From positions 1-45,314 of the IMG/VR virus record IMGVR_UViG_3300036866_000010: a stretch of DNA of 45,314 nt. One strand, 5' to 3'. The notes beneath the pieces are model-generated. The model had not been told where the DNA came from, did no database searches, and worked only from the letters and a program-made list of their open reading frames with translations. Both the position numbers and the translations under genes were made by a program. This stretch comes from a virus. How positions within the stretch are numbered: position 1 is the stretch's first letter; the number at the start of each line of letters is the position of its first letter. Shown here in pieces: positions 961 to 45,314 of the stretch.

Positions 961-1008
961 TTCCAACTTACGCATGGACCGGTCAAGCCGGTCATGCTTG
1001 CGTTATGC
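961..1008 (+). other. attC-like recombination site (left cluster, site 3)
   Basis: Read on the plus strand: R''-like TTCCAAC (961-967), stem arm GCATG-G-ACCGG (972-982), loop TCAAG, arm CCGGTCATGC (988-997), R'-like GTTATGC (1002-1008). The arms pair fully except for one extra G in the left arm, the extrahelical-base position typical of attC. The TAA stop of the minus-strand gene 1003-1137 lies inside the R' core, and the Shine-Dalgarno of the next gene abuts the R'' core. R'' deviates at its first base. Confidence 0.62.
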
Positions 1009-1137
1009 TTCAAATGGACAGGCGTTGTCATTACAAAGAAATTTTACGCAATTATCAGCACACCGTGGCCCATTTTCATCGTAAGGTGTAAATTTCTCAC
1101 ATAAAGGGCATTGTTCATCTATTTCCAGAATATCCAC
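1003..1137 (-). CDS. 44-aa Cys-rich mini-protein (cassette gene)
   Basis: Small gene between two attC-like sites. GTG start at 1137, seven bases after a GGAGG; TAA at 1003-1005 inside the attC core. The acidic protein has six cysteines in CxxC-like and spaced pairs (CPLC, CADNC, C, C), suggesting one small zinc-binding fold. It is the only gene in its ~200-bp cassette. Not recognised; function unknown. Confidence 0.68.
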   Translation of the reverse strand: MDILEIDEQCPLCEKFTPYDENGPRCADNCVKFLCNDNACPFEA

Positions 1138-1160
1138 TTTATCCTCCGATCCACCCGAAC

Positions 1161-1210
1161 GCATAACAAAACGTTCGAGCCGTTGTACGGCTCAACTCAA
1201 GCCGTTATAT
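1161..1210 (+). other. attC-like recombination site (left cluster, site 1, best match)
   Basis: Plus strand: R'' GCATAAC (1161-1167); L'' arm GTT-C-GAGCCG (1173-1182); 5-nt loop TTGTA; L' arm CGGCTCAAC (1188-1196); then TCAAGCC and R' GTTATAT (1204-1210). Pairing is complete apart from an extrahelical C at 1176. The flanks TAACAA..CGTTC.AGCCG and CGGCT.AACTCAAGC.GTTA match the architecture of the class 1 integron aadA-type attC almost base for base. The TGA of the upstream minus-strand gene (1210-1212) touches the core. Confidence 0.85.
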
Positions 1211-1335
1211 CACTCTGCAACTTTGCCTTGAGTCGCCGCCAGTTCCTTCAACTTTTGCCACGGGATACAGTTGGTGAGCGGCCCCGCCTCGCATTCAAAA
1301 CCGTACTTTTCAATTTCTTCCATAAGTTTTTGCAT
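1210..1335 (-). CDS. 41-aa hypothetical phage protein (cassette gene)
   Basis: ATG at 1335 behind GGAGGATTGGT, stop TGA one base before the attC core. Sequence starts MQKLMEEIEKYGFECEAG and contains NCIPWQKLKEL, a pattern I associate with short uncharacterised phage proteins. It overlaps the preceding gene in the cassette by 26 bases, so two genes share one cassette. Function unknown. Confidence 0.7.
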   Translation of the reverse strand: MQKLMEEIEKYGFECEAGPLTNCIPWQKLKELAATQGKVAE

Positions 1336-1525
1336 ACCAATCCTCCGTTTTGTAACTGAATGTTTTTGCCGTGATTGGAGCAAAAACAAACTCCCGTAAT
1401 TGCCCTTGGCAAAATACCTGCCCTCCGCAGGAATCGAGGATTTCATCAACTACGTCCGCAGTAGTTGTCCCATGATATCCTGGCATAGAAGCGGCATTGT
1501 GCATGATCCGCTGATACTCTTGCAT
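1310..1525 (-). CDS. 71-aa hypothetical protein (cassette gene)
   Basis: ATG at 1525 behind GAAAGGATGG, in the first position of the cassette bounded by attC-like sites 1545-1596 and 1161-1210. The central part ADVVDEILDSCGGQVFCQGQLREFVF suggests a small mixed alpha/beta fold. It ends inside the next gene. The ATG, the ribosome site and the position directly after the attC core support it. Function unknown. Confidence 0.62.
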   Translation of the reverse strand: MQEYQRIMHNAASMPGYHGTTTADVVDEILDSCGGQVFCQGQLREFVFAPITAKTFSYKTEDWYAKTYGRN

Positions 1526-1544
1526 GTGGCACCATCCTTTCGTA

Positions 1545-1596
1545 ATCTAACCAACGATGTCCACCGGCCAGAGCCGGTGACGCTCAAGCGTTATCC
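1545..1596 (+). other. attC-like recombination site (left cluster, site 2)
   Basis: Plus strand: R'' ATCTAAC (1545-1551, fits RYYYAAC), L'' ending GT-C-CACCGGC (to 1568), loop CAGA, GCCGGTG (1573-1579), then ACGCTCAAGC and R' GTTATCC (1590-1596). The CTCAAGCGTTA junction is the same as in aadA-type attC. One unpaired C at 1561 is extrahelical, again in the R''-side arm. The TAA of the XRE regulator (1591-1593) lies inside R'. Confidence 0.82.
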
Positions 1597-2975: not shown

Positions 2976-3626
2976 TTATGCCCCCAGTCCTTCAGCCCAT
3001 GAAGTATCAATCTTACTGGCATCCGACCTCTGCCATGTCCTGACCGCTGATTTCCAATTGACCATTTTATTTTTACCAACCATCCATCCTTTCGATGAAT
3101 AGAAGTCATGCCATTTATTTGCATCACCAGAATGAAATCCAATTTCTTGCATGTAGGTGTGTACCTCTTCGACAGAAGGAGGTACAAATCTTTTATTCCT
3201 AGTATCAGGTATCCTAACATCAGGTATCCTAACATCAGGTATCCTAACATCAGGAATCAGAGAATCAGCATTACATTTCGTTACATGTAATGACATGTCA
3301 TGACATTGATTTATATCAGGTTTTTCAGGTAGTATACTTTTAGCCTCATGAGGGTGAGGGTTTTGATGTTTCTTGAAATTCTCAACATAACCAACACCAT
3401 CATGGCATGTAATGACATTCAATGACAAAAGATTTTTAAGGAGCTTTTCGATGTTAACATTATCGTAAGGGAAAATTGTTGCCTTGATCTGCTTAGGTTT
3501 CCATTCAAACCTTCCTTCTTTGTCGGCATAACACCAAAGACCGATAAAAAGCAGGCGTGAAGGAAAACAGACTTCGGACAATTCGGCGTTAAGAAAGAAT
3601 CCCGGCTTAATATTTCTAGCCCTCAT
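2976..3626 (-). CDS. Phage replication initiation protein with internal iterons
   Basis: 216 aa from ATG 3626; the longer frame from TTG 3686 lies within the HNH gene. N-terminal ~95 residues resemble replisome-organiser winged-helix domains (ARNIKPGFFLNAELSEV, LLFIGLWCYADKEGRFEWKPKQIKA). A low-complexity linker has DVRIP repeated three times plus a variant. The C-terminus has a second globular segment (SVEEVHTYMQEIGF, WKSAVRTWQ) typical of DnaD/replisome-organiser C-termini. The linker is encoded by 15-bp direct repeats, as in lambda O, where the origin lies inside the initiator gene. Confidence 0.78.
   Translation of the reverse strand: MRARNIKPGFFLNAELSEVCFPSRLLFIGLWCYADKEGRFEWKPKQIKATIFPYDNVNIEKLLKNLLSLNVITCHDGVGYVENFKKHQNPHPHEAKSILPEKPDINQCHDMSLHVTKCNADSLIPDVRIPDVRIPDVRIPDTRNKRFVPPSVEEVHTYMQEIGFHSGDANKWHDFYSSKGWMVGKNKMVNWKSAVRTWQRSDASKIDTSWAEGLGA
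3204..3263. repeat. 15-bp iterons within replication gene, likely origin
   Basis: Unit ATCAGGTATCCTAAC occurs three times without spacing at 3204-3218, 3219-3233 and 3234-3248, followed by a diverged copy from 3249. The repeats keep the reading frame (five codons each). AT-rich sequence and two palindromes follow immediately. The arrangement recalls the iterons inside lambda O. Confidence 0.75.
3281..3300. repeat. Adjacent 10-bp palindromes next to iterons
   Basis: TTACATGTAA (3281-3290) is followed without a gap by TGACATGTCA (3291-3300), both perfect palindromes. CATGTAATGACAT across them occurs again about 120 bp to the right, near 3406. Possible additional origin or protein-binding sites. 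Confidence 0.6.
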
Positions 3627-3969
3627 GGGACACCACGCGTTCAAAATAAAATTGGAAAACAGGTCGCTTTGGAAGATCAATACCAAATTTGGCTAGGTAT
3701 TTTATTTGTGACGGGGAAAAATGGACATTACCTAATTTCCTCCGTCCGAGACAATCCCTTAAATGCGAAAGCGTAGTTGATCTGTTTTTGATTACATTAC
3801 ATACTTTGCAACTCGGCACTAGATTTTCTATCCGGTGGTCCTTGCCGTCAATCTGTGGTTTGACATGATCGACTTGGAAATTGTCAAATGATATATCTTC
3901 ACCGCAATACCAACAGAATCCGTTAGTTTTAGCGAAAACCTCTTTTCTTTTTTCTGGTTTCATTCCCAT
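3616..3969 (-). CDS. HNH endonuclease
   Basis: 117 aa from ATG 3969, preceded by GAGGTGGGCA; ATG 3981 has no ribosome site. HNH pattern: CWYCG near residue 20, VDHVKP near 35, ENLVPSCKVCN near 52, with two CxxC pairs around the DH and N. It overlaps the start of the replication gene by 11 bases. Either a free-standing homing-type nuclease next to the origin or a replication/packaging helper nuclease. Confidence 0.85.
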   Translation of the reverse strand: MGMKPEKRKEVFAKTNGFCWYCGEDISFDNFQVDHVKPQIDGKDHRIENLVPSCKVCNVIKNRSTTLSHLRDCLGRRKLGNVHFSPSQIKYLAKFGIDLPKRPVFQFYFERVVSHEG

Positions 3970-13921: not shown

Positions 13922-13995
13922 TTCCCTGTCGTCTAGCGGTAGGACATGAGACTTTGAATCTCAGAACACAGGTTCGATGCCTGTCAGGGAATCCA
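13922..13995 (+). tRNA. tRNA-Gln (anticodon TTG)
   Basis: Acceptor TTCCCTG (13922-13928)/CAGGGAA (13985-13991) is perfect; D-arm GTCT/GGAC; anticodon arm TGAGA-CTTTGAA-TCTCA with anticodon TTG; T-arm ACAGG-TTCGATG-CCTGT; discriminator T and an encoded CCA (13993-13995). Reads CAA. It lies four bases after the metallopeptidase gene and 19 before terL, inside the late operon, so it must be cut from the transcript. Confidence 0.93.
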
Positions 13996-28336: not shown

Positions 28337-28872
28337 TGGGCGAATTATCTTCATCATTAAATCCGTTGGTTGATAGTTTCGCCCCATCTTATATATCTAT
28401 TGATGAGGCCCATCATGAAATCCATGACGGAGATTCTTACTTCTTTCAAGACCCTATTAGCTTGAATAACGGCGTTGCCCAGGATTATCTCATAACTACA
28501 CCAAACGATACTGATTGGCATCATTGGCGGTTTGCTATTGATTTCCTTTTTGTGACACAACTACAGCTTTTTGAAGGTGCAGACAGGACTGGGACCACGT
28601 TGCAAAGCATACAGAAAAGCAATCGAAACAGCGCCAATACTTCGGCGATGACGATCCACAAAGGCACATCAGGCGGCACAACCGATGGTACGTTAATATT
28701 CCCATATAAATCCGGACTGTCAACCGGAAGCGGAGCAAACCATATAACCAGTGGGGGCGGTCTTTCCGGTAGAAGTGAAATCATCCTCAAGCAAAACACG
28801 AAATACATTCTCAGGATTACATCTTCTACAGACTCCAACCTGATAAATGTTGGATTCGATTGGTATGAATGA
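28336..28872 (+). CDS. Beta-sandwich virion protein
   Basis: 178 aa, ATG 28336. Lectin-like strand pattern with Ser/Thr-rich turns (NTSAMTIHKGTSGGTTDGTL, ILKQNTKYILRITSSTDSN). The SSTDSN..NVGFDWYE end suggests a carbohydrate-binding or receptor domain. Overlaps the next start (ATGATGA). Confidence 0.62.
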   Translation: MGELSSSLNPLVDSFAPSYISIDEAHHEIHDGDSYFFQDPISLNNGVAQDYLITTPNDTDWHHWRFAIDFLFVTQLQLFEGADRTGTTLQSIQKSNRNSANTSAMTIHKGTSGGTTDGTLIFPYKSGLSTGSGANHITSGGGLSGRSEIILKQNTKYILRITSSTDSNLINVGFDWYE

Positions 28873-29705
28873 TGAAAGAACTTAAAACTCTAGAATTATC
28901 AGGCAAGGTCAACACCCTTATGGAGGAGTTGCTCAAGATGCCGCAAGCTGATTGCCCGGTCAAACACACTTTCATGCCGGGTGTCTATATGCGGGAGATT
29001 ACCTTCCCGGCAGGTACAGCGGCAGTGGGGCAATTTCACAAGTACGACCACATAAACATCCTGGTTAAGGGCAGAGTAACGGTTGTAAATGATGACGGCT
29101 CTACGACCGATTTAACGGCCCCCATGACGTTTATCGGGCATCCCGGCCAAAAGTGCGGATACGTCCACGAAGAAACCATATGGATAAACGTTCATTACTG
29201 CGACTGTACCGATGTTGAGACTATGGAAGCAAGCCTTTACGATTTATCCAAGGCCCCGCAAAGGGGCAAGGGAATATCTTCCGATAGAAAAGCAATAGAT
29301 ACCGATGATTATAACCTTCTCGTCGAGGATATGGTTTTGAATCCTGAAGAGATTAAGGCGGAAGTTGCAGACCTTGAAAATCAAATGGCGATGCCTTACG
29401 GGATTTATAAGGCTAAAGTTTCTGATTCCCTTCTTCACGGTAAAGGGGTTTTTGCTACAGGCAACATAAAGAAGGGTGAATTAGTCGGCCCCGTCAAGTT
29501 CCAAGGCAAAAGAACCCCACTAGGCAGATATTGTAATCATTCCAAAAACCCTAATGCCGAATTCAAGCTATTCGGGGAAGATATTTATCTTGTAGCCCTA
29601 ACGGATATCAGCGGTTGCCAAGGTGGTAATGACGGTGAGGAGATAACCACCAATTACCGGCGCAACTTAATGATTACGGGGAGAAAATCATGTCAGCAGC
29701 CATAA
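28869..29705 (+). CDS. Cupin-SET fusion protein (putative protein methyltransferase)
   Basis: 278 aa. Residues ~30-120 read as a cupin barrel (FPAGTAAVGQFHKYDHINI, KGRVTVVNDDG, PGQKCGYVHEETIWINVHY), residues ~178-265 as a SET domain: HGKGVFATG (190-198), the substrate/SAM motif YCNHSKNPN (NHS at 223-225) and GEEITTNY (256-263). SET enzymes methylate lysine. A cupin-SET fusion in a phage tail block is rare; it could modify a virion or host protein. Confidence 0.75.
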   Translation: MMKELKTLELSGKVNTLMEELLKMPQADCPVKHTFMPGVYMREITFPAGTAAVGQFHKYDHINILVKGRVTVVNDDGSTTDLTAPMTFIGHPGQKCGYVHEETIWINVHYCDCTDVETMEASLYDLSKAPQRGKGISSDRKAIDTDDYNLLVEDMVLNPEEIKAEVADLENQMAMPYGIYKAKVSDSLLHGKGVFATGNIKKGELVGPVKFQGKRTPLGRYCNHSKNPNAEFKLFGEDIYLVALTDISGCQGGNDGEEITTNYRRNLMITGRKSCQQP

Positions 29706-37040: not shown

Positions 37041-39950
<2,910 letters not shown>

Positions 39951-42877: not shown

Positions 42878-42925
42878 CCCTAACTATCGCATACACCGGT
42901 CAAGCCGGTGATGCTTGTGTTATGT
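42878..42925 (+). other. attC-like recombination site (right cluster, site 1)
   Basis: Plus strand: R'' CCCTAAC (42878-42884), L'' GCAT-A-CACCGG (42889-42899), loop TCAAG, L' CCGGTGATGC (42905-42914), R' GTTATGT (42919-42925). The only unpaired base in the arms is an A in the R''-side arm. Nearly the same stem as site 961-1008, with a different loop context. Confidence 0.82.
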
Positions 42926-42927
42926 CA

Positions 42928-43119
42928 CTATTCACATTTGCATGATTTTATTGTTTCCCGCCATGAGCCAGTGAAGCGCGGAGTTATCGTGCACCCATCC
43001 GCAATCCATTTTCCTAGTATTTGACCAGCGGCTTTTCTGTCAGTTCGTTCGTAGTCGAGTGCTCCAACTATTTCACCGCACTGGCATGTAGCTACAAATC
43101 CTGTTGGTTTCTGTTTCAT
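42928..43119 (-). CDS. Conserved phage protein with Cys pairs (cassette gene)
   Basis: 63 aa, ATG 43119 with GGAGG twelve bases upstream. FVATCQCGEIVGALDYERTD at the start and KSCKCE at the end, with a GCTITPRF middle: a pattern shared by small phage proteins that likely bind zinc. Stop TAG 42928-42930 lies two bases from the R' core of the adjacent attC-like site. Confidence 0.72.
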   Translation of the reverse strand: MKQKPTGFVATCQCGEIVGALDYERTDRKAAGQILGKWIADGCTITPRFTGSWRETIKSCKCE

Positions 43120-43137
43120 CTATGTGGCACCTCCGCG

Positions 43138-43201
43138 CCATAACCCCGCTTTGGAAGCGGTCTCCGCTGACGCTACGCCGTTCAAAGCGTAGCCGTTATG
43201 T
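43138..43201 (+). other. attC-like recombination site (right cluster, site 2, longer)
   Basis: Plus strand: R'' CCATAAC (43138-43144), L'' GCTTTG-G-AA-GCGG (43148-43160), a 17-base central region, L' CCGTTCAAAGC (43178-43188), then GTAGCC and R' GTTATGT (43195-43201). Pairing leaves unpaired bases in the L'' arm, as in the other sites. The variable central part is longer than in the others. Confidence 0.68.
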
Positions 43202-43223
43202 CGGTCGGAATTCCGACTGACCT

Positions 43224-43517
43224 TTAAAATGGAATGTGCGGCACGTTATCGTCATGTTTTCCGAATCTGCCGCCACAATCCGGACATGGGTTCCACCATT
43301 TGCGGAGATAGTCGATCCGATCATTCCGCCAAATCTTGAATTTCCAGCGGAGCATTTCCAGCCATCCGGCCTCATAGTCGTTGTGACCACACCGGAGACA
43401 ATCATAGATGTTGTAATACTCAGCCGCTTCAGGGTGGTAGTCATGGCCGATAATCCGACATAACCAGCGTTTAGACCTGTCCGCCGGTTTGTCGTCTGTA
43501 GTTCTGAATATGCCCAT
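43224..43517 (-). CDS. Two-zinc-site protein (cassette gene)
   Basis: 97 aa from ATG 43517; a GTG at 43523 is too near the AAGGGGG. CLRCG near residue 42 and CPDCGG near 80 form one or two zinc knuckles; a Trp-rich middle (WLEMLRWKFKIWRNDRIDYLRKWW) may bind nucleic acid or membrane. Between two attC-like sites; a short palindrome (GTCGGAATTCCGAC, 43205-43218) follows its stop. Confidence 0.7.
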   Translation of the reverse strand: MGIFRTTDDKPADRSKRWLCRIIGHDYHPEAAEYYNIYDCLRCGHNDYEAGWLEMLRWKFKIWRNDRIDYLRKWWNPCPDCGGRFGKHDDNVPHIPF

Positions 43518-43535
43518 AGTCACGGCCCCCTTGAT

Positions 43536-43568
43536 GCTGGCGGTCAGGTCAAACGCCAGCCGTTATCT
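43536..43568 (+). other. attC-like site (right cluster, site 3, degenerate)
   Basis: Stem GCTGGCG (43536-43542)/CGCCAGC (43554-43560) with an 11-base loop, then R' GTTATCT (43562-43568). No RYYYAAC core lies on the left; CATAGTC at 43514-43520 is the nearest. Context (gene stop TAA inside R', start of next gene near R'') matches the other sites. Weaker, possibly decayed. Confidence 0.45.
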
Positions 43569-43793
43569 GCCTTTTAGCGCCTTGATCATCGGAGGGTTGA
43601 AATGACTCCCCTCTATTCCTTCTCCGAGCTTCCATTCCAATATTTCACACTCATATTTCCGGCCCCGATACTCTTCCTCAGTTTCAGCGGCTTTCTGAGC
43701 AGCAGCTTTTTTGGAATAAACGCCAACGATGTAGCTATGAGTTTCCTGATCGCCCCATCTACAGGCTCTAACTGTGTAAACTGTCTGTTTCAA
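43563..43793 (-). CDS. Hypothetical basic protein (cassette gene)
   Basis: 76 aa from TTG 43793, seven bases after TAGGAG; longer frames lack a ribosome site. KQTVYTVRACRWGDQETHSYIVGVYSKKAAAQKAAETEEEYRGRKYECEILEW, a beta-hairpin plus helix arrangement, suggests a small nucleic-acid binding fold. Its stop lies inside the R' core of the degenerate site. Function unknown. Confidence 0.6.
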   Translation of the reverse strand: MKQTVYTVRACRWGDQETHSYIVGVYSKKAAAQKAAETEEEYRGRKYECEILEWKLGEGIEGSHFNPPMIKALKGR

Positions 43794-43819
43794 CCGCTTA
43801 CTCCTATTCCGCCGATAGC

Positions 43820-43870
43820 AGATAACCATCGGCTGTTGCGCTCAAGGCGCAAAGCCTCAGGCCGTTACCC
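43820..43870 (+). other. attC-like recombination site (right cluster, site 4)
   Basis: Plus strand: R'' AGATAAC (43820-43826), L'' GGCT-G-TTGCG (43831-43840), loop CTCAAGG, L' CGCAAAGCC (43848-43856), then TCAGGCC and R' GTTACCC (43864-43870). One extra G in the L'' arm. The R' is followed by a GGAGGGTGG stretch on the gene strand, 27 bases from the next upstream stop. Confidence 0.74.
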
Positions 43871-44791: not shown

Positions 44792-44943
44792 ACCCTCACC
44801 TCTTCTATTTCAAGACCACAGTAAGGGCAGAATTTGTACTTATTATCCTTTATCCCCGATTCGATGAAACAATGAGCTTCGCCGCAGGATGTATCCCACG
44901 TATTGAAATCATCAGGGATCCACGGTTCCCATTGACATTTCAT
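44788..44943 (-). CDS. Cys-rich 51-aa protein
   Basis: ATG 44943 behind AGGAGGGGGAGGG. CQWEPWIPDDFNTWDTSCGEAHCF and CPYCGLEI: a zinc-ribbon-like fold with conserved Trp. A family of similar short phage proteins exists. Function unknown. Confidence 0.68.
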   Translation of the reverse strand: MKCQWEPWIPDDFNTWDTSCGEAHCFIESGIKDNKYKFCPYCGLEIEEVRV

Positions 44944-44981
44944 CCCTCCCCCTCCTTCCCCCGCCCGCAGGCTACCCTTTG

Positions 44982-45134
44982 TCATAAAACCTCGCTCCAA
45001 ATTTCTATGTAATTATTAGCCCATTCCTGCAAGGCCGCCTCTATATCCTCTTGCGTGAAACTGTCGGGCAGTTCAATTATATCTTCGTGTTCTGCCGTAG
45101 TGTATCCGATGCTCAAAAAGAATCTGACTTTCAT
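44982..45134 (-). CDS. 50-aa hypothetical phage protein
   Basis: ATG 45134 behind AGGAAGAGGG. KVRFFLSIGYTTAEHEDIIELPDSFTQEDIEAALQEWANNYIEIWSEVL: a beta hairpin then a helix, a pattern seen in short phage proteins. Function unknown. Confidence 0.68.
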   Translation of the reverse strand: MKVRFFLSIGYTTAEHEDIIELPDSFTQEDIEAALQEWANNYIEIWSEVL

Positions 45135-45162
45135 CCCTCTTCCTCCTTTCCCCACCGGCAGG

Positions 45163-45314
45163 CTACCCCTTAGATAGTTTATGGTGCAATTCAATCCACC
45201 GTTTAGAGCAGACATTCGCCAAGTGAGTTAACTCCTGCATCTCCCGCATGACGCCCTCTTTGCCGGTCTTGAGACTCGCGGCCTCCCATTCCAGACATTC
45301 GGACTTCACAGCAC
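45163..45314 (-). CDS. Second copy of the join-spanning gene (3' part)
   Basis: The repeated end carries the C-terminal codons of the gene listed at 1-240, ending TAG at 45163-45165. It is truncated at the window edge by the circular join, not a separate gene. Confidence 0.88.
   Translation of the reverse strand, partial: AVKSECLEWEAASLKTGKEGVMREMQELTHLANVCSKRWIELHHKLSKG

Follow-up and report, generated by a model that had tools for sequence, protein, structure and literature searches.

Integron gene cassettes in phage genomes are already known. Integrons and CALINs were reported in 21 phages by Qi et al. (PMC9892861), and five of six tested phage attC sites were recombined by IntI1. In the virulent phages TJE1, PH101 and P12002L, attC-bounded cassettes are carried without an integrase; the TJE1 cassettes have the canonical polarity, whereas P12002L is reported with divergent attC. 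In contrast, the records of the temperate Vibrio and Shewanella phages (MK672802, MZ568829) contain intI together with an attC array. The locus described here is in an uncultivated bacterial virus, an IMG/VR record of 45,314 bp (hereafter the window). As in TJE1, its cassettes are bounded by attC sites and no integrase is encoded, but the whole array is inverted, a near-identical attC is shared by unrelated phages, and replacement of cassettes between sister phages is visible. In a literature search that did not cover preprints and most subscription journals, no report of an inverted phage integron class or of an attC family shared across unrelated phages was found.

Positions 1-130 of the window are repeated at 45184-45313 with 99% identity, indicating a complete circular or terminally redundant genome. 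The map is circular (45,183 bp), and the left cluster (961-1596) and the right cluster (42878-43870) lie 2.3 kb apart on one leftward early operon. The phage has terminase, portal and major head proteins and the recombination genes YqaJ exonuclease, NinB, ERF and RusA, but no integron-integrase candidate (TIGR02249) was found. A tRNA-Gln (TTG) at 13922-13995 (+) is just before the terminase large subunit gene, and was the only match in an Rfam gathering search. In addition, the window contains a SET-domain protein (28869-29705, +) inside the structural gene region, nine-base collagen-like repeats in the tail fibre gene (37475-37636) and 15-bp tandem repeats (3197-3256) inside ORF 2976-3686.

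The three sites of the left cluster proposed in an earlier note, at 961-1008 (attC 5), 1161-1210 (attC 6) and 1545-1596 (attC 7), are real attC sites. Four more are present in the right cluster at 42878-42925 (attC 1), 43138-43201 (attC 2), 43458-43568 (attC 3) and 43820-43870 (attC 4). Each has RYYYAAC- and GTTR-like cores around a stem, although R' is often GTTAT, slightly off the consensus. attC 3 is a long form of 111 nt with a stem of about 18 bp. One extra base is located in the 5' (R''-side) arm in all seven sites when read on the + strand, and none was found in the mirrored scan. This rule was checked on a class 1 integron plasmid, a Shewanella integron and phage TJE1, where the extra bases lie in the 5' arm in the direction of the genes. 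Folding of the bottom-strand DNA showed the stem with an extrahelical base and, in several sites, also paired TAAC/GTTA around an unpaired spacer. The z-scores were -3.0 to -3.7 for the three sites of the left cluster and -2.3 to -3.8 for all seven sites. attC 6 matches the aadA-type attC of class 1 mobile integrons in layout and in sequence, in order. However, the genes here read toward the preceding core instead of toward their own attC, they are tiny and of phage type, and there is no intI or attI in the window.

A loose scan for RYYYAAC/GTTRRRY cores with folding found many weak candidates across the window and was too noisy alone, so that covariance models were trained. Model R1 was trained on 20 attC from bacterial integrons. 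With filters off, its three best hits over both strands of the window were attC 6 (29.7 bits, E 2e-5), attC 7 (12.9 bits) and attC 2 (9.9 bits), all on the + strand; the fit was strong for attC 6, weak for the other two and absent for the remaining four. In 1.0 Mb of phage loci, its only hit was attC 6. The TJE1 attC at 244-293 scored 23.0 with the same model. Model R2 was trained on 43 attC from other phage contigs, leaving out the window and its sister phage G001 (described below). Its top seven hits in the window are exactly the seven sites, at 53.9 (attC 6), 29.3 (attC 7), 22.8 (attC 3), 21.6 (attC 4), 20.7 (attC 5), 19.0 (attC 1) and 15.5 bits (attC 2), and the next hit is at 11.0 bits. 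R2 found nothing in 927 kb of 80 control phage loci, recovered attC of bacterial integrons in their proper orientation at 17-50 bits and also found the TJE1 attC. It should be noted that the training hits for R2 were themselves found with R1 after a pattern search modelled on attC 6, which means that R2 is independent of the other six sites but not wholly of attC 6; the E-values of both models are rough. A strict structural scan gave seven sites on the + strand, six of them array sites, and none on the - strand, against a mean of 0.2 (maximum 2) in 60 dinucleotide shuffles and three in 927 kb of other phages. Its cut-offs were chosen after seeing the sites, and this result is supportive only.

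The cassette genes lie on the - strand. In the right array, a gene of 63 aa with no known family (42928-43119) is located between attC 1 and attC 2. It is followed by a gene of 99 aa with a weak match to PHROG 2670 (43224-43523), whose start lies in the loop of attC 3, and by a gene with a weak match to DUF7336 (43563-43829; ORF of 88 aa, likely start TTG near 43792), whose TAA stop is the complement of TTA in GTTA. In the left array, a gene of 53 aa (1003-1164) has its TAA stop inside the GTTA core of attC 5. Between attC 6 and attC 7 are gene 2b (1210-1335), of about 41 aa from an internal ATG of ORF 1210-1449 and matching PHROG 31702 (E 1.1e-6, residues 39-76), and gene 2a (1310-1525) of 71 aa. 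The two left cassettes are about 202 and 386 bp. The array is flanked by two backbone genes on the - strand: a gene of 88 aa (709-975), 88% identical in G001, starts inside attC 5, and an HTH gene (1591-1863), conserved in G001, abuts the array with its stop inside the GTTA core. Searches for relatives of the cassette proteins in viral contigs, genomes and isolate phages found none.

Only one close relative, G001 (IMGVR_UViG_3300036870_000006, 45,994 bp), was found in IMG/VR, also when flanking backbone genes were used for the search. Its backbone is 85-95% identical to that of the window, but everything between the outer attC sites of both clusters is replaced. In the right array, homology runs through attC 1 to its GTTAT and stops, then resumes at the CCGTTA of attC 4: about 940 bp with three cassettes in the window faces about 1,005 bp with three unrelated cassettes in G001. 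In the left array, homology runs through attC 5, which is 86% identical to attC 1, to GTTAT and resumes at the CGTTA of attC 7, and two cassettes face one. All four edges fall at the core where integron integrases cut (G^TT; PMC9892861). Exchange at this position is inferred from comparison of genomes. In addition, G001 (locus L103) has a third pair of sites at 29147-29097 and 28866-28806 (L103:2807-3148), where the window has other sequence and no attC, and a further attC-like hairpin at 39628-39562 whose 3' end (GATAGTTTATGG) is where homology to window position 45173 resumes, which might reflect insertion at a secondary site. Other parts of the early region are mosaic without attC, and this is therefore one route among several. 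A 43-nt gene leader repeated at 44938-44980 and 45129-45171 (86% identical), also matched once in G001, is another possible recombination boundary.

Near-identical copies of attC 6 occur in ten or more unrelated uncultivated phages. A pattern modelled on this site hit 39 viral-contig stretches, against about 3 expected by our own estimate; some are chance matches in coding sequence, but more than a dozen are near-identical sites. Among ten of these contigs and the window, all 55 pairs stop matching 3, 4 or 5 bases after the G of GTTA, and the next 50 bases are 25% identical on average. On the other side, the match runs 41 to 64 bases, through attC and in some groups into the ribosome-binding region. 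A gene difference between two of the contigs (L204 and L223) lies 47 bases from the site and was not used as evidence.

In canonical cassettes, the gene runs toward its own attC. Here, the genes start beside attC and end at the previous core. By the longest ORF ending at the site, all 14 informative sites in the window and G001 were inverted and none canonical, whereas in other phage contigs 31 were inverted and 4 canonical (38 sites, 3 undecided), and in bacterial integrons 5 were inverted and 33 canonical (Fisher p 3e-11 and 7e-9). Longest-ORF calls are a proxy, and several of the contigs are related (L204, L220, L222, L223). One phage (G007, 40970-47296; L246) has about nine attC-like sites in 6.3 kb, all in one orientation, with genes on the opposite strand, including a C5 DNA methyltransferase. 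The earlier note had described one- or two-gene cassettes separated by integron-like attC sites, through which a phage could swap early genes. This reading is supported: the attC models hit far above background, and a related phage does not keep the same genes, so that both tests it had set came out in its favour. The note missed the inverted polarity. The two clusters join through the terminal repeat, and a fourth site (attC 3) exists in the right cluster.

Although neither the window nor G001 has an integron integrase, three of 21 phage contigs with this attC family encode full-length proteins above the TIGR02249 cut-off (385, 299 and 296 bits) with the IntI-specific insert. The genes are at L239:9475-10488 (G003), L236:9460-10497 (G014) and L241:1217-2200 (G017), where L239, L236 and L241 are loci of these phages. 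IntI4 (2A3V) is the best solved relative of the one tested. The three phages also carry portal and terminase genes, and the G003 and G017 integrases are 73% identical although these phages have different portal and terminase families. In G003 and G017, a conserved stretch next to intI ends in TTGATGTTAT, a candidate attI; the same ten bases occur in the attI1 region of a class 1 integron. The first cassette of G003, a C5 DNA methyltransferase, ends with its stop codon at that core. In the tree, the Shewanella phage IntI is almost identical to a host IntI, whereas the G003 and G017 IntIs form a separate long branch, the position of which is uncertain because of long branches. The G014 IntI groups with those of Desulfuromonas, Chlorobi and Omnitrophota. 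A scan of viral sequences with two of the phage IntIs, which relied on poor peptide patterns, returned only themselves.

These results strongly suggest that the locus is a CALIN, the cassettes of which are exchanged by integron-integrase recombination at the G^TT of the R' core. Each cassette begins at TTA, the complement of a TAA stop codon, and ends with the start codon, often a ribosome-binding site, and then attC. The genes therefore read opposite to the canonical attC direction and in line with the leftward operon of the phage. As the phage encodes no integrase, IntI would have to act in trans, from a host integron or from a co-infecting or resident phage that carries intI. It would act on attC hairpins formed when the phage DNA is single-stranded. 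The catalyst, its source and the single-strand step are inferred, and the benefit might be rapid exchange of small host-interaction or anti-defence genes. A host search by attC pattern in 395 and 250 genomes gave no match, so that no bacterial genome with the attC 6 type is known among the 645 searched.

Other explanations appear unlikely. The array might be a remnant of a host chromosomal integron captured by accident, as reported for Vibrio and Shewanella prophages (PMC9892861), and the fit of the sites to bacterial models is in agreement with this. However, the polarity is opposite to that of bacterial cassettes, the array is still turning over, and the attC 6 type was absent from the 645 genomes and from the plasmids and isolate phages searched but present in many phage contigs. 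It is somewhat less likely that the hairpins are conserved boundary sequences at which the annealase, exonuclease and RusA of the phage recombine without an integrase. The presence of these genes, the identity between attC 1 and attC 5 and the mosaic early region without attC are consistent with this idea. On the other hand, only a few core bases are shared at the right-hand edges, too little for homologous recombination. Furthermore, identity in the 55 pairs ends at the integron cleavage point and not at random positions within the 43-bp shared site, and the sites have a conserved one-sided extra base and fit bacterial attC models. A role as transcription terminators or other RNA elements, which is not exclusive of an attC role since attC sites can act as weak terminators (PMC9892861), is very doubtful as the explanation, because only the tRNA matches Rfam, the single extra base always lies in one arm, both conserved cores are present and the replacement edges fall at the cores. 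Chance hairpins near AAC and GTT triplets are contradicted by the independently trained models, the controls and the conserved copies in unrelated phages.

It is more likely than not, but not established, that there is a phage-dedicated integron class in which cassette genes read inward, toward attI and intI, with the stop codon of each cassette at the boundary and its start and ribosome-binding site beside attC. Such a class would have its own divergent phage-encoded integrases and a shared attC family, and would move small genes, including DNA methyltransferases, between unrelated phages; integrase-less phages such as this one would use the integrase in trans. The finding makes it testable whether phage cassettes feed bacterial integrons and the reverse, and how a gene acquires an attC, because the same attC here sits next to different genes in many phages. 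Phage mosaicism is usually credited to illegitimate or homologous recombination. A site-specific cassette system shared by unrelated phages would give a defined mechanism for how small early genes, many of unknown function and some likely anti-defence, spread between phages.
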